Below are positions 21,092-33,870 of a stretch of DNA of 34,086 nucleotides, piece after piece. The stretch is taken from the NCBI GenBank assembly GCA_017430835.1, contig JAFRMD010000128.1, forward strand, positions 1-34,086, given 5' to 3'. Position 1 is the first letter of the stretch. Every line of letters starts with the position of its first letter. Below the pieces are notes generated by a model. That model had not been told where the DNA came from, searched no databases, and saw only the letters and a list, made by a program, of their open reading frames with translations. Source of the DNA: Methanosphaera sp. (GTDB lineage Archaea; Methanobacteriota; Methanobacteria; Methanobacteriales; Methanobacteriaceae). The translations under genes and the position numbers were made by a program.

Positions 21092-21240
21092 CATAATTTT
21101 TTCTTAAAAATTTATTTAAACTCCTTATGTCTTATTTTAATAGTTCCTTTTTTATTTCCAAATAATTTAAATATTATGTTTAACAAAATAAACTCATATA
21201 ATGATTGATTAGATATAAAAGAATAAAAGGGGTTTTATCT

Positions 21241-24200
21241 TTGTTAAATCGTAAAAGAACTCTAGTATTTTTCATATTTTTGTTATTGATTTTTTCATTA
21301 ACATTTGTTTCAGCTACTGATAATCAAACAGTAACTAAGAAGCTTACTAAGAAAAGTATTTCCACTATTAATCAATCAACAAGTACTACTATTAGTAAGG
21401 TAAACAAATTGAAAAAAAATCTCAACACAACTAAAACACTTAAAAATAATCAGGAAAGTACTAATTATGTTTATGTAAAAAATAAGGGTAATTCTTCTAG
21501 TAATGGAAATGATTCATCGAATCCTACAACATTATCTAAATCGTTTGGATATGTTAAAGATGGTGGCACTATATTATTAGATGGGGAAGGTACTGTAACT
21601 ACTTACAATGTAAATGAAGCATTTTCAAGTATACCTAATACAATTAATGGATTTAACATTATTTCAAGTAACAGGACGAATGTTGTTTTGAACTTTAATT
21701 CAAATAATGTTATGAATTTTAATAGAAACTTTTCAGTTAATATTTCAAATATTGCTTTTACAAAACAATCAAGCTCAACAAATTCAATCATTGACAATAA
21801 TGCAATATTAACACTCAACAATTGTACTTTTTACAATACAACTCATACTAATGGTTTAATAAATAATAAGAACACTTTAATAATAAACAGTTCAGTTTTC
21901 ACTAATAACACTGCAACACGTCAGGGTGGGGTTGTTTATTCAGAAAATGCTAAGATAGGGATATATAATTCAACATTCAAAATTAACCGGGCAAATTATG
22001 GTGGGGTAATATCTACTTATAATAGTAACATTACTGTCAAGGATTCTTCCTTTGAAAACAATAATGCTTCTTTCGGTGGAGTTTTCTCATTGAAAGATTC
22101 ATCAGAATTATTTGTAGAAAACGGTACTTTTATAAATAATTCGGCAACTAATAATGGTGGAGTAATAAATTCATGGTACTCTTCATATTTAATTAATTCG
22201 TCAAAACTTATATCAAATTCTGCTACGATAGGTGGTGTTTCTTATAGTGTAGATAGTAGTGAAGCTAAGATAATAAATTCACTATTTGAAAACAATTGTG
22301 CAAGAATTACTGCTGGCGGAGTTTTCTCATGTACTGATAATTTAACAATTAAAAATAATGTCATATTATCTGCTGATAATCTATTAACAGCTATTGATGG
22401 TGTTTATGATTTATCAGAAAATTGGTGGTCCGTCAATAATCCTGACTTTGATACTTTAACAGGAAGTATTTTACCAACCAATTGGAGGTTAATGGATTTA
22501 GAATATGTTGATAATACAGTAACCGTATCATTGGATAAGTTAAGTGATTCTTCAATTTCAAAAAATTCATTATTTAATAGGATAGTTTCTTTTACAACAA
22601 TATTGGGTGTTGTAAATAATCAATTAATAATCAATAAAACTGTTAATTATACCTATTCCAGTAATTTGGATGATTTAACGGTTCAAATTGATAATCAATT
22701 AATGAAATTAACTGATAAAATACGGGCATATATTTATACAAAGAGTATTTCCACTAAAATAGATGATAACGTAACGATGATTATTCAATGTAATCCAGAC
22801 ATCAGAGATTTAACAATTAAAATAGATGATAATGTACTAGAAACTATTAATCCAATTAATGGTACTGCAATATTTAAGTATAACTTCAATTCTTCATGGA
22901 CAATTGGAAAACATATATTATCCATATTGTTAAAGGATAATCCAAGATATAATAACAGTGAATTTACTAGTGAGATAATAATTAATGAAAATTATAATAC
23001 TACAATATCTCTTATAACACCTCCAGTTAAAGAAGAAATACCGGAAGATGAAATAGTTATTCCATCCAGTTACGATGCTAGGCTTTTAGGACTTGTAACA
23101 AGTGTAAAAGATCAAGGAAATAGTGGAAGTTGTTGGGCATTTGCAACGCTTGGAACATTAGAATCAGCATTACTAAAAATTTATGGACAGGAATATGATT
23201 TGTCTGAAAATAGTATGAAAAATCTTCTAAAAAAGTATTCTTTAATAGGAGATAACTCAGATTCACCAAGGGGAGGAAACCATGACCTTGAACCACTTGG
23301 GTACCTTGTAGGATTTTTTGGGCCCGTAAGTGAAGTCGATGATTCATACGATGATTATAGTTTAATGTCACCTGATTTAGAAAATTTATTACAAATTCAG
23401 GATGTATACTTTATTCCATATAGAAATGATCCATTAGACAATGATCAATTAAAATTAGCTATCATGAAGTATGGAGCAGTAGCAGTATCATTTGAAGCTT
23501 ATACTGCTAGTACTAATACTTATATTAGTAATTATAATGGCATTAATCATGCAGTGGTACTGGTTGGATGGGATGATAATTACAGTAAAAATAATTTCAG
23601 AAGCAAAAATGATGGTAGAAGTCCACCGGGAGATGGAGCATTCATAATAAAAAATAGTTGGGGTACAGGTATAGGTGATGAAGGATACCAGTACATATCA
23701 TATTATGACGTATCATTAGGAGGATTAAGTTATAATAAGGATTATGTTTACATGGATTATAATTATGTATTCCCATTAAAGGAATATGAAAATTATTCAA
23801 ACATTTACCAATATGATACTATAGCAACTGACTTCATTTTCCTAACACCAGAAGCATGGGTAAGAAATATTTACACAGCAACAGAAGATGAAAGTATAGC
23901 AGCAGTAGGAACATTCTTTTATGAAGGAAATGATTATGAGGTATATGTATACGTAAATGATAAGTTATACTATTCTCAAAATGGTTCAATTACACAACCA
24001 GGGTATAGAACAATAAAACTTGACAAATATGTTCCAATTAAAAAAGGAGATACATTTAGAGTAGACTTAAAAATTAAGGCACATATAGGTGATTACACAA
24101 TATTAACAATACAAAACACAAACAATTATAAATCATTCTCTAAGGAAAACCAATCATTCATTAGTTGGGATGGAGTAAACTGGCAGGATATGTACACATA

Positions 24201-26628
24201 TAATGAAGAGTATAACCATTCGGTTGCATGTCTAAAAGTTTATACAAAGAAAACACCAAGCATATATTCAACAATTGAAGTAAATGAAAATTATATAATA
24301 AAAACACAAGTCAACAATATTACAGGTCCTTCAAAACTCTCATACGTGATAAATAATGAAATTGTCACTGATAATATGGGAAATACTCTCTATGTTGATG
24401 TAACCGAGGATGGATTATATGAAATAGAACTTCCATTTAGTCACGTAAGGTTATATGAATATAATGTTACCGTAATATTTGAAAGTGATGATTATACTAT
24501 AATAGAAAACACAACAATAATCGAGCCTAAAACAATTATCATATTATGTCCTGATTTAACATTTTATGTGGATGGACATCAGGAATTTACTGTGAAATTA
24601 GTAATTCAGGATAATGAATATGATATTAAAATAGACTCTGGAACATTACTGTTATTAAATAAGACAGACTATGTAATTAAGAAGGTAAATGTTAATGATG
24701 AAAATGTGGTATTGGAAGTAGACTTTACAGATGCTGGCGAATATAACTTAATAATTAGTTATAAAGGATCATATGTTTATACGGCTCAAGATTTGAATGT
24801 TAAATTAAATATTATTAAAAATCCAGTATATATTGAAATTACAAATATAACCAAAAAATTGTTTACTGATGAATCTTTTTCAATGGAAGGAGTATTATAT
24901 TCAAGAAATAATAAAGAAGTAGGTTATGCAACTTTAACAGTAAATATTGGTGGAAAAACATTCAACGTTACAACAGATAATGAAGGAAGGTTCAGTATAA
25001 AACAGGTTATGAATGTCAGTGGAGAATTCTTTGTAAACATATTATTTGAAGGAAGTCCAACACATAATGAATTAAAATATAATCAATCATTCATAGTTGA
25101 AAAACAGACAACTTCCTTTACTTTAGATACAACAAGTCTAAATTCTTATGTTGGAGAAGAAATTACAATTAATGGAAAATTATCTAGTGGCATTAATAAT
25201 CCGGTTAGAAATGCAAGTATAAAAATGTACTTAAATAAAGATTATTTAACCACTATTAAAACTGACGATGAAGGAAAATTCAGTTATATCTATAAATTAA
25301 ACACTACTGGAACATTCAATCTAGTTCTATACTATGAAGGAGATAAGAATTATTATAATACAAACATTTCACAGAATTTTTCATCACAAACAAGACCTAC
25401 AAAATTAACAGTTAATGATATTGGAGATAAAGTTGGATATTTAAACATTTCCCTAAAATTAACGGATGTCATAAATGGTAATCCATTAATGAATGCTAAA
25501 ATATTAATTATTACAGAAAATCAAACAGAATATTCAAATATAACTGATAAACAAGGAAATACTATAATTAAAATCTATGCAAACAGCGGTTTAAACAAAA
25601 TCATTATTAAATTCAATGGAAATAAAACATATAATGAAGCTAGTATCACAAAGAACTTTACAGTATACAAGAATAATGTAACAATTACTATTAAACAAGT
25701 GCAGGGTATTATTGGAGAAAATACTATAATAACTGCAGATATAACTGAAAGTAACCAAAAACCAATAAGCACTGGAACAGTAGAATTTAAAGTAAATGAA
25801 AAAATAGTTAAAACAAATGTAAAAAATGGTAAAGCAACTATAAATTTAACATCAAATGATTTATCAATTAAGAATTATAAAATTAAAGTAACATTCTTAG
25901 AAAATAATATATACAATAAAGCTTCATCAAATATGGTATCTGTTAATTTAATTAAAAGAAATGCAACAATATCAGTTGATGTAACACCAAAACAAGTTAA
26001 ACAGTACGCCACAATTACTATAACAGTAACATTAAAGGACACAACAAATAATCATAAAAACAATACAATAATCACTGATTTCACAAAGGTATACTTTAAA
26101 TTAAACGGCAAAATACTTAAAGATTCAAATGGAAACATCATTTATGTTAAAGTAAATAAAGATGGAATTGCAACATACAAATATAAGATACCAGCAGGAA
26201 CAATATCAACAGATAAGAATGGAAAACTGAAAAAATACAATATAACTGCAATACTTAAATCAGATTATTACAATTCAAACATTAAAAATTCAACATACTT
26301 CAATGTTGCCAAGAGTAAAACTACAATAAAAGTTAAAAAAATCACAATTAATAAGAAAAAACGCTTATCAATTAAAGCTGAAGTAAAAGACTATAAAAAC
26401 AATAACATTCTACAAAACAGCAAAATATCATTAAAAATTAATGGAAAAACATATTTGAATCCAAAAACGGGTAAAGTTAAATACTTTAGCGTTAAGAAGG
26501 GTATTATTAACTTATCAAAAATACAGTTAAATAAGAAAATAAATCCTAAATTCGTAACAATTCTATTTAAACAAACAAAATCTTACGAATCTTCAAAAGT
26601 GAAAGTAACTAAAATTGTTAAAGTCTAA
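21241..26628 (+). CDS. Giant adhesin-like surface protein with an embedded papain-like cysteine protease
   Basis: About 1795 residues. The start is a TTG at 21241, with GGGG (21229-21232) 8 nt upstream; it gives a clean signal peptide (basic LNRKR, hydrophobic core, FVSA) at 1-25. About 187-363 has beta-helix repeats (N-N-x-S-A-T-x-x-GGV). About 607-830 is a C1A (papain) peptidase with all catalytic parts: Q625 (oxyanion hole), C631 in SGSCWAFAT, H770 in INHAVVLVGWDDN and N805 in IKNSWG. About 865-1000 resembles the lectin-like domain often found after such proteases. Ig-like beta-sandwich repeats (about 1010-1570) and the C-terminal module shared with the protein at 325-4242 follow. It should act outside the cell; the substrate is unknown. 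No inhibitor-type propeptide is seen. Confidence 0.88.
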   Translation: MLNRKRTLVFFIFLLLIFSLTFVSATDNQTVTKKLTKKSISTINQSTSTTISKVNKLKKNLNTTKTLKNNQESTNYVYVKNKGNSSSNGNDSSNPTTLSKSFGYVKDGGTILLDGEGTVTTYNVNEAFSSIPNTINGFNIISSNRTNVVLNFNSNNVMNFNRNFSVNISNIAFTKQSSSTNSIIDNNAILTLNNCTFYNTTHTNGLINNKNTLIINSSVFTNNTATRQGGVVYSENAKIGIYNSTFKINRANYGGVISTYNSNITVKDSSFENNNASFGGVFSLKDSSELFVENGTFINNSATNNGGVINSWYSSYLINSSKLISNSATIGGVSYSVDSSEAKIINSLFENNCARITAGGVFSCTDNLTIKNNVILSADNLLTAIDGVYDLSENWWSVNNPDFDTLTGSILPTNWRLMDLEYVDNTVTVSLDKLSDSSISKNSLFNRIVSFTTILGVVNNQLIINKTVNYTYSSNLDDLTVQIDNQLMKLTDKIRAYIYTKSISTKIDDNVTMIIQCNPDIRDLTIKIDDNVLETINPINGTAIFKYNFNSSWTIGKHILSILLKDNPRYNNSEFTSEIIINENYNTTISLITPPVKEEIPEDEIVIPSSYDARLLGLVTSVKDQGNSGSCWAFATLGTLESALLKIYGQEYDLSENSMKNLLKKYSLIGDNSDSPRGGNHDLEPLGYLVGFFGPVSEVDDSYDDYSLMSPDLENLLQIQDVYFIPYRNDPLDNDQLKLAIMKYGAVAVSFEAYTASTNTYISNYNGINHAVVLVGWDDNYSKNNFRSKNDGRSPPGDGAFIIKNSWGTGIGDEGYQYISYYDVSLGGLSYNKDYVYMDYNYVFPLKEYENYSNIYQYDTIATDFIFLTPEAWVRNIYTATEDESIAAVGTFFYEGNDYEVYVYVNDKLYYSQNGSITQPGYRTIKLDKYVPIKKGDTFRVDLKIKAHIGDYTILTIQNTNNYKSFSKENQSFISWDGVNWQDMYTYNEEYNHSVACLKVYTKKTPSIYSTIEVNENYIIKTQVNNITGPSKLSYVINNEIVTDNMGNTLYVDVTEDGLYEIELPFSHVRLYEYNVTVIFESDDYTIIENTTIIEPKTIIILCPDLTFYVDGHQEFTVKLVIQDNEYDIKIDSGTLLLLNKTDYVIKKVNVNDENVVLEVDFTDAGEYNLIISYKGSYVYTAQDLNVKLNIIKNPVYIEITNITKKLFTDESFSMEGVLYSRNNKEVGYATLTVNIGGKTFNVTTDNEGRFSIKQVMNVSGEFFVNILFEGSPTHNELKYNQSFIVEKQTTSFTLDTTSLNSYVGEEITINGKLSSGINNPVRNASIKMYLNKDYLTTIKTDDEGKFSYIYKLNTTGTFNLVLYYEGDKNYYNTNISQNFSSQTRPTKLTVNDIGDKVGYLNISLKLTDVINGNPLMNAKILIITENQTEYSNITDKQGNTIIKIYANSGLNKIIIKFNGNKTYNEASITKNFTVYKNNVTITIKQVQGIIGENTIITADITESNQKPISTGTVEFKVNEKIVKTNVKNGKATINLTSNDLSIKNYKIKVTFLENNIYNKASSNMVSVNLIKRNATISVDVTPKQVKQYATITITVTLKDTTNNHKNNTIITDFTKVYFKLNGKILKDSNGNIIYVKVNKDGIATYKYKIPAGTISTDKNGKLKKYNITAILKSDYYNSNIKNSTYFNVAKSKTTIKVKKITINKKKRLSIKAEVKDYKNNNILQNSKISLKINGKTYLNPKTGKVKYFSVKKGIINLSKIQLNKKINPKFVTILFKQTKSYESSKVKVTKIVKV

Positions 26629-29394: not shown

Positions 29395-30123
29395 ATGATA
29401 ACAGAATTAATATATGAAAAAGAAGATGATACGATTTATGGAAAACTATATTTAGTTGATTCAAACAGAAAACAACAACCAATCATTATTATATCTCATG
29501 GATTATCATTAAATCATACTATTATGATTCCATATGCTGAAAAACTCTACAAAAAAGGAATATCATCATACATATTTGATTTTCGTGGAGGAGGATATGA
29601 CTCAAAAAGTACAGGTGAAATCCGTGACATGACCATACAAACTGAAATGGATGACTTGAACTTTATAATTGATTCTTTAAAAAAAGAAGAATTTGTAGAT
29701 AAAAACAACATTTACCTGGCAGGCCATAGTCAGGGAGGATTAGTAAGTAATCTGGTAGCAAGTAAAAGAAATGATATTAAAAAGTTGTTCCTATTTGCAC
29801 CAGCATATGAAATCCCCGATGACATGAAAGAAAAAGATAATCCTAAAGAAAGAAACGTATTAAACCTAATGCCGGAACATTTAGGTGATAATTATATAAA
29901 TTGTGCAATAAATATTGATGTTTTTAATGAAATAATAGGATATTATGGAGAAGTAAACATATTTCATGGGATGGAAGATAAAAGAGTTCCGATTGAATAT
30001 TCAGTTAAAGCCGATAAAGTTTTAGAAAACTCTTATGTTTATGTTTACGAAGAAGGAGAACATCGTTTCAGTGATGAAATAAAAGATGATGTAGTAAATA
30101 TTATAAGTGAAAAAATAGATTAA
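29395..30123 (+). CDS. Alpha/beta hydrolase
   Basis: A 242-residue serine hydrolase of the alpha/beta fold. The oxyanion strand is IIIISHGLSLNH (about 30-41), then FDFRGGGYDS. The nucleophile is S112 in LAGHSQGG, the acid is probably D195 in HGMEDKRVP, and H223 in EEGEHRF completes the triad. This resembles the esterase/acyl-peptidase-like group with a lid of about residues 138-170. The substrate is unknown. GGTGA lies upstream. No partner gene is close (54 nt to the next, same strand). Confidence 0.9.
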   Translation: MITELIYEKEDDTIYGKLYLVDSNRKQQPIIIISHGLSLNHTIMIPYAEKLYKKGISSYIFDFRGGGYDSKSTGEIRDMTIQTEMDDLNFIIDSLKKEEFVDKNNIYLAGHSQGGLVSNLVASKRNDIKKLFLFAPAYEIPDDMKEKDNPKERNVLNLMPEHLGDNYINCAINIDVFNEIIGYYGEVNIFHGMEDKRVPIEYSVKADKVLENSYVYVYEEGEHRFSDEIKDDVVNIISEKID

Positions 30124-30204
30124 AATTTACAAAAATTTTTAAAATATAAATAACATATTATATACTAAAATTGAATATTGAATAAAAAATATGGGGAAAA
30201 TACT

Positions 30205-31026
30205 ATGGTTAATCCAAATAAAAAAGTTAAACGACCAAATGGTTTAGGAAATGTGTATAATTACAAAACAAATCCTGAAGGAAAGATTTTCACATTACCT
30301 ATTAAAACCATTTTAAAAGAAAATTACATTTACATTTTAAGATCAATCAATGAAGAAAATTATTATATAATGGAAGATGACACTTGTTTTTTCTTTAAGG
30401 AAGTACTCTATGATGATGAAGTAGTGGGATTTGCAACTTACAAGACAACACAGATTAATAAGGATACGCTTGTAATGCAATACTTCTATGTATTACCAGA
30501 ATATCGTGAAAAGGGATTACTTGAAGAGGAAATAGATGAATCAGCAGCACTATTTGAATCAAGTATCATTATAGAAAATCCTACTAGGGAAATGGTAGAA
30601 TCATTAACAAAACATAAACTTGCAAGAATCTTTGATAATCGTTTTGTAATTTCACGAATACCATTTATGGTTTCGATGCATTCACTGGAAAATGTGTTAA
30701 AAGGAACAGTCCGAGAAGAATATGATTCCGGTGATGCATTAACATATTCAAAAATGTCTCATCTCTATGATTTAGACTTATGTGCGGTTGTAGGTATTGC
30801 AAACAAGGACATAGACAACATGTATGATGAAGAAAATGTGGATGAAGAAGACATTAACAATTATAATATAATTAGCCTACCACTACGTGAAGACGTTGAA
30901 AAGTATGACTGTATAAACAAACGTCTTGAAAGTAATGAATTACAAGATGGATCATACTTCAAAATGATTAAAGAATTCCTTGATGACAATGAGGATATAA
31001 TTCAAAATTGGTTATCAATTATCTAA
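30205..31026 (+). CDS. Uncharacterised protein with a GNAT-like core
   Basis: A 273-residue protein. The start at 30205 has GGGGA about 8 nt upstream; a TTG nine codons earlier is in frame. The segment DEVVGFATYKTTQINKDTLV then MQYFYVLPEYREKGLLEEEI (about 75-115) resembles the beta-4/beta-5 strands and acetyl-CoA loop of GNAT N-acetyltransferases (V-x-P-x-Y-R-x-x-G), although the canonical Q/R-x-x-G-x-G/A glycine loop is only partly kept. The rest, including an acidic stretch (YDEENVDEEDINN), is not recognised. It lies just upstream of the macrodomain-sirtuin pair but is separated from it by two hairpins and a T-run. Function unassigned. Confidence 0.6.
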   Translation: MVNPNKKVKRPNGLGNVYNYKTNPEGKIFTLPIKTILKENYIYILRSINEENYYIMEDDTCFFFKEVLYDDEVVGFATYKTTQINKDTLVMQYFYVLPEYREKGLLEEEIDESAALFESSIIIENPTREMVESLTKHKLARIFDNRFVISRIPFMVSMHSLENVLKGTVREEYDSGDALTYSKMSHLYDLDLCAVVGIANKDIDNMYDEENVDEEDINNYNIISLPLREDVEKYDCINKRLESNELQDGSYFKMIKEFLDDNEDIIQNWLSII

Positions 31027-31047
31027 AATCAAAAACAGTTATTCTTT

Positions 31048-31086
31048 AGTAAACACGGGTTTACTTAAAGATCATAATCTTTTTTT
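31048..31086 (+). terminator. Double hairpin and T-run between GNAT-like gene and macrodomain gene
   Basis: AGTAAAC/GTTTACT (31048-31065, loop ACGG) is a perfect 7-bp hairpin. One base later AAAGAT/ATCTTT (31067-31082, loop CATA) follows, ending in the T-run 31080-31086. This looks like a terminator and separates the macrodomain-sirtuin unit from the gene before it; an attenuator is also possible. Confidence 0.55.
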
Positions 31087-31116: not shown

Positions 31117-31923
31117 ATGCAAAGAGTCGATTATCTAATAGATTATATATTAAAAGAAAACCCTGAAATAAAAGTCAACAAACAACCAGAAAGTCCACAA
31201 GAAAAATTCAATTTATATCGAAGCTTATGTAACATTAGAAAAGCACGTCCAATCAGTGATGAATATATCCACGTAGAAAACAAATATTTACAGGACATAC
31301 TTAAAAACAAGAAATGTATCCATTATGAGGATATAAAAACGATAAATCAAGAATATCCCACTAATAATGTTAAGAACGGCGATAAAATATCATTATATCA
31401 GGGAGACATCACAACAATTGAAATTGATGCAATAGTAAATGCTGCAAATTCACAGGGATTGGGTTGTTTTATTCCATGCCATAATTGTATAGATAATCAG
31501 ATAAACACTTATGCGGGAGTATCATTGCGATTGGAATGTAATGAATATATGAAAAAAATAGATTACAACCTACCCACAGGAGAGGCATTCATAACGAGAG
31601 GATATAACTTACCTGCAAGTTATGTGATTCATACTGTGGGACCAGCAATATCTGATATGGTTCACGAAAAACAAAAGGAAGAATTATCAAATTGTTACAA
31701 AAATTGTCTTGCAAAGGCACAGGAAAAAAGGATTAGAAGCATTGCTTTCTGCAGCATTTCAACAGGAGTTTTTAGATTTCCTAAAGATTTGGCATCACAG
31801 ATAGCAATTAAAACAGTGGATAGCTATTTGGAAGAAAATTATGAACATTTCGATAAAATAGTTTTTAATGTATATAGTAATGGAGATAAGGATATTTATG
31901 AAAGATTATTCCAAAAAAGTTAA
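31117..31923 (+). CDS. Zinc-type macrodomain protein (ADP-ribosylhydrolase, SirTM-associated class)
   Basis: A 268-residue protein. Residues 1-85 are an unassigned N-terminal extension; the macrodomain covers about 90-265. YQGDITTIEIDAIVNAANSQ (94-113) contains the NAAN loop that contacts ADP-ribose. GLGCFIPCHNCID (114-126) has the Cys and His residues (C117, C121, H122, C124) typical of the zinc-containing macrodomains encoded next to SirTM sirtuins. SISTGVFRFP (213-222) is the phosphate loop. Such enzymes remove ADP-ribose from proteins modified by the partner sirtuin. The gene overlaps the sirtuin by 26 nt, so the two are surely co-translated. Family call by motif; the reaction direction is known for bacterial members only. 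Confidence 0.9.
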   Translation: MQRVDYLIDYILKENPEIKVNKQPESPQEKFNLYRSLCNIRKARPISDEYIHVENKYLQDILKNKKCIHYEDIKTINQEYPTNNVKNGDKISLYQGDITTIEIDAIVNAANSQGLGCFIPCHNCIDNQINTYAGVSLRLECNEYMKKIDYNLPTGEAFITRGYNLPASYVIHTVGPAISDMVHEKQKEELSNCYKNCLAKAQEKRIRSIAFCSISTGVFRFPKDLASQIAIKTVDSYLEENYEHFDKIVFNVYSNGDKDIYERLFQKS

Positions 31924-32806
31924 GGATATTCGTAATTCCATTGATGAAGCTGATTATGTGCTCATTGGTGCAGGTGCAGGATTATCGTCTGCAGCAGGAA
32001 TAGAATATGGTGGAAAAAGGTTTGAAGAAAACTTTCAATACTATATTAAAAAGTATAACATGACTGACATGTATACCGCTGGTTTTTATCCATTTGAAAG
32101 TTTAGAAGAAAAATGGGGATACTGGGCAAAACATATTTACTTGAATAATGTAAATATGGAGGGAACTACATTATATAAAAAACTTCTAAAACTTGTTGAA
32201 GATAAGAAATACTTTGTAATAACTACTAACGTGGATGATCAGTTTATTAAATCAGGATTTTCATCACAAAAAGTTTTCGCTACTCAGGGAAGCTACAATT
32301 ACTTTCAATGCAGTAAAGGATGTCATGATATCCTATATAAAAACACAGACATAATAAATGAAATGGTTGAAAATATTGATGAAAATTTAAAAATACCCTC
32401 AGAACTTATTCCAATATGTCCAAAATGTGGAGAACCATTGGATACAAATTTACGTAAGGACAATTACTTTGTAGAGGATATGCATTGGCATAAACAGAAG
32501 GATGCTTATCAAAAATTTATTGAAGAGGCAAAAGATAATAAAACAGTATTGTTGGAGTTTGGTATTGGTTTTAACACTCCTGCCATAATAAGATTTCCAT
32601 TCGAGACAATGACTGTTAAACTTCCAAAGTGGAAATTGGTGAGATTTAATAAGGATTACCTTGAAATTGCAGTAACTTATCATAAAACACTTAAACTTGT
32701 TCCAATAGAAAATATTGATGATTATAATTTACCTAATAATTTTAAAGAAAGGTATGTTCCTATTTCAGAGGATATTAATAAGGTAATTGATGAATTGTTA
32801 AAATAA
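31898..32806 (+). CDS. SirTM-type sirtuin (likely protein ADP-ribosyltransferase)
   Basis: A 302-residue Sir2-fold NAD-dependent enzyme. The start at 31898 follows GGAG (31882-31885) and AAGGA, and gives MKDYSKK; an in-frame ATG ten codons earlier lacks a site. The NAD loop is GAGAGLSSAAGI (24-35). TTNVDDQF puts N111 and D113 in the active site. Where deacetylating sirtuins have catalytic His in H-G, this protein has Q130 in ATQGSYNYFQC, as in SirTMs of pathogens, where the Asn/Asp/Gln set supports ADP-ribosylation. Zinc cysteines are C138, C142, C174 and C177. No lipoyl-carrier GcvH-L or lipoate ligase gene is in this window, so the substrate is unknown. It overlaps the macrodomain gene. Confidence 0.9.
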   Translation: MKDYSKKVKDIRNSIDEADYVLIGAGAGLSSAAGIEYGGKRFEENFQYYIKKYNMTDMYTAGFYPFESLEEKWGYWAKHIYLNNVNMEGTTLYKKLLKLVEDKKYFVITTNVDDQFIKSGFSSQKVFATQGSYNYFQCSKGCHDILYKNTDIINEMVENIDENLKIPSELIPICPKCGEPLDTNLRKDNYFVEDMHWHKQKDAYQKFIEEAKDNKTVLLEFGIGFNTPAIIRFPFETMTVKLPKWKLVRFNKDYLEIAVTYHKTLKLVPIENIDDYNLPNNFKERYVPISEDINKVIDELLK

Positions 32807-32920: not shown

Positions 32921-33466
32921 ATGTCAGTATATGATTATAACGTTAAAGATACAGAAGGAAATACAGTATCACTAAAAGAATATGAAGGAAAGGTATTACT
33001 TATTGTAAACAGTGCAACCCAATGTGGATTTACTCCTCAATATGATGAGCTTGCTAAAATGTATAATGAACTTAAAGATGATGGATTTATAATACTTGAT
33101 TTTCCATGTAACCAATTTGGTCAACAGGCTCCAGGTACAGGAGCGGAAATTAAGGAGGCTTGTCGTCTAAACTTTTTAGTTGAATATCCAATTTTTGAGA
33201 AAATTGATGTTAATGGTGAAAATGAAGATCCATTATACACTTACCTAAAAAATGAAACTTCATTTAATGGTTTAGATAAGGAACATGAACTTTATGAAAG
33301 AATTTCAGCCGTAGTAAGTAGTATTGATCCAGATTATGAAAATAATAATGATATAAAATGGAACTTCACCAAATTCCTAGTAGACCGTGAAGGTAACGTC
33401 GTGGAACGTTTTGAACCGACCAAGGATTTAAAAATTGTAAAAGAAAAAATTAAAGAGTTATTATAA
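32921..33466 (+). CDS. gpx: Glutathione peroxidase family protein (thioredoxin-dependent two-cysteine type)
   Basis: A 181-residue peroxidase of the thioredoxin fold, reducing hydrogen or lipid peroxides. The peroxidatic Cys is C35 in NSATQCGFTPQY; FPCNQFGQQ contains C63 and Q69, and KWNFTKF supplies W147 and N148 of the catalytic tetrad. C81 in KEACRLNF is at the position of the resolving Cys of yeast Gpx3 (C82), which points to an intramolecular disulfide reduced by thioredoxin rather than glutathione. Methanogens lack glutathione. The last base of its stop codon is the first base of the flavodoxin ATG (TAATG), so the genes are translationally coupled. Confidence 0.92.
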   Translation: MSVYDYNVKDTEGNTVSLKEYEGKVLLIVNSATQCGFTPQYDELAKMYNELKDDGFIILDFPCNQFGQQAPGTGAEIKEACRLNFLVEYPIFEKIDVNGENEDPLYTYLKNETSFNGLDKEHELYERISAVVSSIDPDYENNNDIKWNFTKFLVDREGNVVERFEPTKDLKIVKEKIKELL

Positions 33467-33870
33467 TGAAATATGCTATTAGATATTATTCTAAATCTGG
33501 AAATACTGAAAAATTAGCTCAGGTAGCTTCACAAGTACTTGATATTCCGGCTTTAGATATAACTAATCCTTTAGAAGAAGATGTTGATATTTTATTCTTT
33601 GGTTCGGGAGTTTATGGATGTGCATTGGATCCGGCAGTTATAAGTTTCTTTGATAATATTGGGGTTAAAGTTTCCTCATTAGTTAACTTTTCAACTGCTG
33701 GAATGATGGAATCTAATTATAATTTTATGAAACATATTCTTTCAGCTACTGATATTATTTTATCAGAGAAAGAATTCCATTGTCCTGGGTCTTTTGTTGG
33801 TTTAAATAAGGACAGACCTAATGATACGGATTTGGAAGAATTTAGGAAGTTTGTTGAAGATTTTTTATAA
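33466..33870 (+). CDS. Small flavodoxin
   Basis: A 134-residue FMN-type flavodoxin. The phosphate loop is YYSKSGNTEKLA (about 8-19). DILFFGSGVYGCALDPAV and FSTAGMMESN follow the pattern of the FMN isoalloxazine loops, and CPGSFVGLNKDRPN is the C-terminal flavin segment. It is shorter than the flavodoxin at 27532-28038 and not a close copy. Translation is coupled to the peroxidase, suggesting it delivers electrons to peroxide reduction, directly or through another carrier (inference). A T11 run (about 33914-33924) probably terminates it. Confidence 0.88.
   Translation: MKYAIRYYSKSGNTEKLAQVASQVLDIPALDITNPLEEDVDILFFGSGVYGCALDPAVISFFDNIGVKVSSLVNFSTAGMMESNYNFMKHILSATDIILSEKEFHCPGSFVGLNKDRPNDTDLEEFRKFVEDFL

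Follow-up and report, generated by a model that had tools for sequence, protein, structure and literature searches.

Which protein does a sirtuin and macrodomain pair modify in a methanogen, and under what control? The question is raised by a stretch of 34,086 nucleotides from Methanosphaera sp. (contig JAFRMD010000128.1; hereafter the window), in which two overlapping open reading frames encode such a pair where a preliminary description of this DNA had placed them. The first (31117..31923, + strand) encodes a 268-residue protein, Zn-Macro, which by its profile and PDB matches is a predicted zinc-dependent hydrolase of the MacroD type that would act on ADP-ribosyl-Asp/Glu as the eraser. The second (31898..32806, + strand) encodes a class M sirtuin, SirTM, of 302 residues when read from ATG 31898, and is the putative writer, a mono-ADP-ribosyltransferase. 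The known SirTM substrate is a lipoyl domain (PMC4518038), and for minimal SirTM/Zn-Macro pairs the literature leaves the substrate open (PMC11490716); both reports are cited here from their available text. We propose as the best explanation, with a probability of roughly 60%, that the two proteins form a writer/eraser pair in an HxlR-linked redox regulon and that their target is among the co-regulated proteins.

We explored the possibility that the target is lipoyl-GcvH-L in a family set of 138 genomes, which was reached via a Methanosphaera contig (L001). The lipoate ligase model TIGR00545 had no match above its cut-off in the 138 genomes and 16 weak ones, and the LipA model TIGR00510 had none above cut-off and 80 weak ones, while it detected 10 of 14 controls. 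The GCV_H model PF01597 matched in 38 of 138 genomes at E <= 0.001 and above its cut-off in 20 of 138. The best single match scored 24.9 bits, or 27.4 when neighbours in one frame were included, and frames of 465-609 residues contained 37 of the 38 matches. One match per model was opened: that of PF01597 was a carboxylase with a biotin domain, and that of TIGR00545, one of the 16, was a biotin ligase. The lipoyl route was rejected on these weak matches and opened examples, archaeal two-part lipoate ligases having had no separate search. In the window, neither GcvH-L nor LplA was found among the scanned open reading frames, a part of all those present, and the flanking genes belong to other families, in agreement with the preliminary description. 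The window pair is not a member of the extended operon type that contains GcvH-L. Since the relatives give no sign of GcvH-L, the target is probably another protein, as that description had proposed; this is well supported across the family, and we infer the same for the window.

Upstream of Zn-Macro in the relatives we noticed by eye a paired element, GTWAC-N6-GTWAC, usually ahead of an AT-rich, TATA-like stretch. In a search set of 900,461 bases (the window plus 61 loci), there were 74 pairs with a spacing of 6, none with a spacing of 5 and 4 with a spacing of 7. The element was present in 30 of 43 Zn-Macro upstream regions, a count that is descriptive since the element was first spotted by eye in such regions, versus 3 of 542 such regions taken from other genes. 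The regions upstream of HxlR, PNPOx and DUF169 genes, 57 in all, were counted apart from the 542, and 9 of 52 Zn-Macro genes with less than 40 bp of intergenic DNA upstream were dropped before the count. Dinucleotide shuffles of the 43 regions gave a mean of 0.005 and a maximum of 1. When the proteins were clustered at 70% identity, at least one member had the element in 8 of 13 clusters and most members had it in 7 of 13. In the window, GTTATTCTTTAGTAAA (31038..31064, + strand) overlaps a perfect dyad, GTAAACACGGGTTTAC, and each of the two forms has 2 mismatches to GTWACN6GTWAC. Since the perfect dyad sits where relatives have the exact element, this candidate degenerate operator is suggestive.

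The element was also found ahead of genes that had not been used to find it. It precedes 17 of 19 PNPOx genes distant from the pair, the exceptions being those of G066 and G107. These 19 are the ones among 22 matches (E <= 1e-40) that lie outside the loci already taken (G081, G012 and G137 were excluded), although the site in G040 was already known from an element scan of 12 genomes. Three of the 19 come from genomes without SirTM, two with the element (G043 and G103) and one without it (G107). Radical-SAM loci were available for 30 of 35 places, among them G040, the locus that prompted this test. All 23 loci with 900 bp upstream have the element, and the 7 of 30 with at most 226 bp upstream have none there; ACGX peptides are encoded in 22 of the 30. 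Genes for HxlR regulators are preceded by the element as well. G040 contains nine sites, three of which flank two HxlR genes and an ACGX operon, with two further ones at Zn-Macro and a PNPOx gene. This operon encodes an ACGSD-repeat peptide, a radical-SAM/SPASM protein (574 bits to TIGR04340, cut-off 400), a quinone-reductase-like protein that scores below its NCBIfam cut-off, and a PNPOx/4Fe-4S protein. Plasmid pNP174 of Methanosphaera sp. ISO3-F5 (L226) has an ACGX cassette with the element, an HxlR gene and a PNPOx/4Fe-4S-like protein. The cassette adjoins BREX genes, and its radical SAM is annotated in two pieces.

Gene content points in the same direction. SirTM is present in 30 of 33 genomes with the ACGX radical SAM versus 45 of 105 others (Fisher p 6e-7, with kinship ignored). 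In other members of the family the pair has HxlR and PNPOx (PF01243) genes as neighbours, in several arrangements. Among the scanned open reading frames of the window, no HxlR, PNPOx or ACGX gene was found. In relatives, the "minimal" pair appears to belong to a redox regulon; both this promoter element and the link to ACGX and PNPOx lay beyond the reach of the preliminary description.

Bacterial loci were examined on plasmids only, and 6 of 34 matched plasmid records were opened, of which five are of the minimal type and one is extended. In a plasmid of Roseburia sp. 831b a single row holds HxlR (109.5 bits to PF01638), the element GTTACAAAAAGGTAAC, acgA, acgM, a nitroreductase, PNPOx/4Fe-4S, Zn-Macro and SirTM. 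The Subdoligranulum row holds an ACG-repeat peptide, a radical SAM, a nitroreductase-like protein, PNPOx/4Fe-4S and, in reversed order, SirTM and Zn-Macro; an Rrf2 gene is present and the element was not found. PNPOx and Rrf2 genes are close to the pair in Enterococcus casseliflavus and Treponema saccharophilum. The Niallia locus has an Rrf2 gene by Pfam; two of its other products look by eye like an NAD(P)-binding protein and a reductase of the flavodoxin type. A PNPOx_N protein is encoded beside the pair in 4 of the 5 minimal-type loci.

We propose the following sequence of events. SirTM would attach one ADP-ribose from NAD to a protein, as its conserved catalytic residues and published homologues suggest, and Zn-Macro would remove ADP-ribose from Asp/Glu, as the M. 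oralis homologue did on a model substrate. In the relatives, the pair would be transcribed from a promoter with GTWAC-N6-GTWAC ahead of the TATA-like stretch. A repressor of the HxlR type may bind the element, and thiol or redox stress would then release all units together. The ADP-ribosylated protein would itself be a regulon member, with the PNPOx proteins or the Cys-rich ACGX peptide as first candidates. In the lineage of the window, the element may have drifted to the symmetric variant, or the regulation may have become weaker or been lost.

Several observations weigh against this proposal. We infer HxlR binding, redox induction and all substrates, and the evidence for both the regulon and the lipoylation gap comes from relatives rather than from the window's own genome. 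TIGR00545 was above its cut-off in just 3 of 14 well-known genomes used as controls, so the test for absence of a lipoate ligase is not strong. No exact pair exists in 13 of the 43 Zn-Macro upstream regions; the close relatives L037 and L038 are without one, and L039 and L040 have a spacing of 7. The exact element was not found upstream of the window Zn-Macro, and the 45 degenerate matches in the window versus 42.9 expected are not above chance. When 12 genomes were scanned whole, 139 sites were found versus 227 for a reversed control, and this lack of over-representation means that the element is a special site rather than a common one. Neither the ACGX radical SAM nor a close PNPOx is present in 26 of 75 SirTM genomes, so neither can be a universal target, and SirTM is missing in 5 of 36 genomes with a close PNPOx. 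The element occurs in 1 of 5 bacterial minimal-type loci; in each of the remaining four, an Rrf2 gene is close by. The relatives also share descent, and the counts are not independent.

The same 26 genomes would be expected if this were an ordinary minimal pair whose substrate is specific to its lineage and has nothing to do with ACGX or PNPOx, the element being an HxlR box on independent stress genes. Both genes are present or both are missing in a gene row that is otherwise kept, which also favours this possibility, as do the different neighbourhoods of the other bacterial minimal-type pairs. We regard it as possible but the less probable account, since in Roseburia and Subdoligranulum a single row unites ACGX, PNPOx/4Fe-4S, Zn-Macro and SirTM, and in archaea a common element ties the same genes from separate places. 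A more specific idea, which we consider doubtful, is that lineages free of lipoate swapped lipoyl-GcvH-L for the ACGX peptide, which SirTM would modify at an acidic residue and Zn-Macro would free again. The radical SAM would in that case mature ACGX into a redox carrier rich in thiols, a partner of PNPOx/4Fe-4S and of quinone or nitroreductases, and the "minimal" pair would serve as a portable switch in a second redox system, one based on a peptide and common to archaea and Clostridia. An acidic residue follows most archaeal ACGX repeats (ACGSD, ACGSE). The biotin domain of pyruvate/oxaloacetate carboxylase, the nearest GcvH relative found by PF01597, is a very improbable target: the model does pick up this domain and a lipoyl domain is the known SirTM substrate, but the weak matches occur in genomes both with and without SirTM, and no gene neighbourhood or common promoter element was seen that links the carboxylase to the pair.

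A degenerate or inactive window sirtuin, or a plain deacylase, is just as improbable, for although some relatives have degenerate tandem SirTM copies, the window protein keeps N111, D113, Q130, R186 and GxGxNTP, and its weak Pfam SIR2 match (27 bits) is what is expected for class M. Numbered from ATG 31898, which fits the numbering of the preliminary description, it has TTN-V-D with N111 and D113, Q130 within TQG, R186, and GIGFNTP at residues 222-228. The active-site codons for N111, D113 and Q130 lie at 32228..32287 (+ strand) by motif reading and alignment with PDB 5a3a. Published SirTM features are Asn118, Gln137, Arg192 and GVGx[NT]TP (Mol Cell 2015, PMC4518038), the last of which is present in the window with Ile replacing Val; N111, D113 and R186 are the window equivalents of Asn118, Asp120 and Arg192. 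The alignment with 5a3a (SpySirTM of S. pyogenes; E 1.2e-53, residues 10-262) sets the window Gln against a Gln and not a His, and the Gln of the 5a3a chain opposite Q130 is taken as the published Gln137. Three starts are possible: ATG 31898 with an overlap of 26 bp, ATG 31880 with 44 bp, and the longest open reading frame from 31868 with 56 bp. The first fits many relatives of 301-304 residues that align from residue 1 of the 302-residue form, and the second fits two identical database proteins, both of 308 residues.

Zn-Macro exceeded the cut-off of NCBIfam NF003163 (323.9 bits versus 272, residues 2-267 aligned) and matched PDB 5kiv with E 1.5e-64. Motif reading places the zinc loop Cx4HxC (C117, H122 and C124, with an additional Cys at 121) at 31465..31488 (+ strand); the loop reads CFIPCHNC at residues 117-124, and NAAN is at 108-111. 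The zinc site, NAAN and the Gln-for-His sirtuin triad of the preliminary description were thus all recovered, and by all sequence features tested the window pair is SirTM/Zn-Macro. These residues had been taken there as the mark of the GcvH-L reaction; they mark the SirTM/Zn-Macro family only. Likewise, the N-terminal region of about 85 residues (31117..31371, + strand), which had been called unexplained, is by the NF003163 and PDB alignments the predicted three-helix bundle of the family, the alignments with 5kiv, 8rsl and 8rsi beginning at residue 3. According to the available text of PMC11490716, all Zn-Macros share this bundle, and zinc, whose binding needs it, is lost upon its deletion. 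A Cys precedes the zinc-binding His in 11 of 51 Zn-Macros with a full loop, the window protein (31477-31479) included; the others have Leu, Met, Gln, Gly or Asn at this position.

SirTM was found in 75 of the 138 family genomes and Zn-Macro above cut-off in 73; a sirtuin in this many genomes indicates that the window pair is not a chance occurrence. At the level of the phylum (151 genomes), all 76 Zn-Macro matches (E <= 1e-60) fell within genomes of the family search. Zn-Macro lies immediately 5' of SirTM in the same orientation in 40 of 42 loci of a first set (the window, L001 and L036-L075) and in all 9 SirTM-bearing loci of a second, which makes 49 of 51 archaeal SirTM loci, window included, with L044 and L071 as exceptions. 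In the genome of L044 and L118 (G124), Zn-Macro and SirTM are on separate contigs, and the SirTM start carries its own element, GTTACCATTTTGTAAC. In L071 (G048:C16) a divergent SirTM overlaps a TMEM175-type gene with no Zn-Macro beside it, and the stretch holds four HxlR-type genes and PNPOx genes.

In the window the pair is preceded by genes for an alpha/beta hydrolase (29395..30123, + strand) and a GNAT-like protein (30178..31026, + strand) and followed by those for a glutathione-peroxidase-like protein (32921..33466, + strand) and a flavodoxin-like protein that scores under the curated cut-offs (33466..33870, + strand). Most Methanosphaera-type loci show this order: hydrolase, GNAT, Zn-Macro, SirTM, an efflux gene in some cases, peroxidase and flavodoxin. 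In relatives without the pair, the gene right after GNAT is either peroxidase, with flavodoxin next (L111, L114), or flavodoxin itself (L113, L115, L116); L112 has other genes after GNAT. Since the row persists in loci without the pair, these four genes were rejected as dedicated partners; they are backbone genes, into which Zn-Macro and SirTM fit as a unit. G123:C1 keeps the GNAT gene with no SirTM match listed, and its PNPOx match is split over two frames. G019 has a Methanosphaera-type SirTM locus with a layout like that of G126 plus a second locus of a different lineage, and is probably a mixed assembly. Farther upstream in the window, 21205-26628 encodes a 1807-residue adhesin-like repeat protein with a stretch (QGNSGSCWAF) recognised by eye as similar to papain-type cysteine peptidases.

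A gene for nicotinamide phosphoribosyltransferase (NAMPT) is located directly 3' of SirTM in L047, L048 and L052 (by Pfam in L048 alone), in two of the three after tandem SirTM copies, a position fitting the recycling of nicotinamide released by SirTM. In the second tandem copy of L047, L048, L056 and L058 the catalytic Gln is gone (SNGD replaces TQGS), as are the GAGAG and GxGxNTP loops. Judged from these residues, such copies are apparently pseudo-enzymes kept next to an intact one. A Zn-Macro-like gene with the loop CRDPNHMC (G121:C17:48248-49012, in L119) is present in a genome without a SirTM match.

In a SirTM tree of 33 rows, in which extended-operon Firmicutes are represented by a single Aerococcus row, the window groups with G122, G126, G118 and L001 (99/97). 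As to how archaeal and Firmicutes copies are related, which the preliminary description had raised, the fork joining the archaeal main copies and Niallia is unstarred (89/68), and the long rows are unsure. An origin of the archaeal pair from a phage or plasmid was rejected: a phage collection gave two rows, one of them a Staphylococcus phage record of 5.5 kb that matched over the full length at 37%, and no archaeal plasmid was among the 15 matches listed of 34 plasmid records for the sirtuin.

The element and the Roseburia row narrow the "other protein" to a short, testable list made up of PNPOx flavoproteins and the ACGX peptide; they also suggest that the pair has a redox trigger. The ACGX radical-SAM system would gain its first functional context. 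We know of no tie between that system and ADP-ribosylation, and a search of open-licence PMC literature found nothing on ACGX with radical SAM, nor on macrodomain, sirtuin and radical SAM together.

These observations can be compared with four known systems. MsvR of methanogens is likewise a redox-linked archaeal repressor with sites near BRE/TATA, but according to the available text of PMC3729527 its own site is TTCGTAN4TACGAA rather than GTWACN6GTWAC, and it was rejected as the regulator of the element. The ACGX radical-SAM system (TIGR04340; acgA/acgM) corresponds to the archaeal radical SAM of G040 with its upstream ACGX-repeat peptides, but it was not seen in the window.

The closest published case is MorMacro, the Zn-Macro of a minimal operon in Methanobrevibacter oralis (structures 8RSI-8RSK; JBC 2024, PMC11490716), so that a lone methanogen pair is not new. 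It shares with the window pair the family of its host, the two-gene minimal operon, the zinc loop, the N-terminal bundle and NAAN, and differs in genus and sequence. In the available text of that report, MorMacro demodified PARP1 E988Q and not GcvH-L, the tested Zn-Macros of pairs and fusions showed no demodification of GcvH-L, zinc-dependent hydrolysis of Asp/Glu-ADP-ribose is reported for homologues, and archaeal and fungal Zn-Macros are sister groups. The terms HxlR, pyridoxamine, radical SAM and promoter do not occur in the main texts of PMC11490716 and PMC4518038, nor does ACGX in that of the former.

The extended operon of Staphylococcus and Streptococcus (GcvH-L, LplA2, OYE and LLM; PMC4518038, in its available text), a type met here in Aerococcus tenax, also combines SirTM and Zn-Macro with redox flavoproteins nearby, whereas the archaeal pair has no GcvH-L or lipoate ligase found alongside. 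Where that operon has OYE, LLM and GcvH-L, the relatives' pair has PNPOx, quinone-reductase-like and ACGX genes. The window pair alone is an additional member of the known SirTM/Zn-Macro kind; the new part is the link, regulatory and by gene row, that is seen in its relatives to the PNPOx/ACGX redox set.

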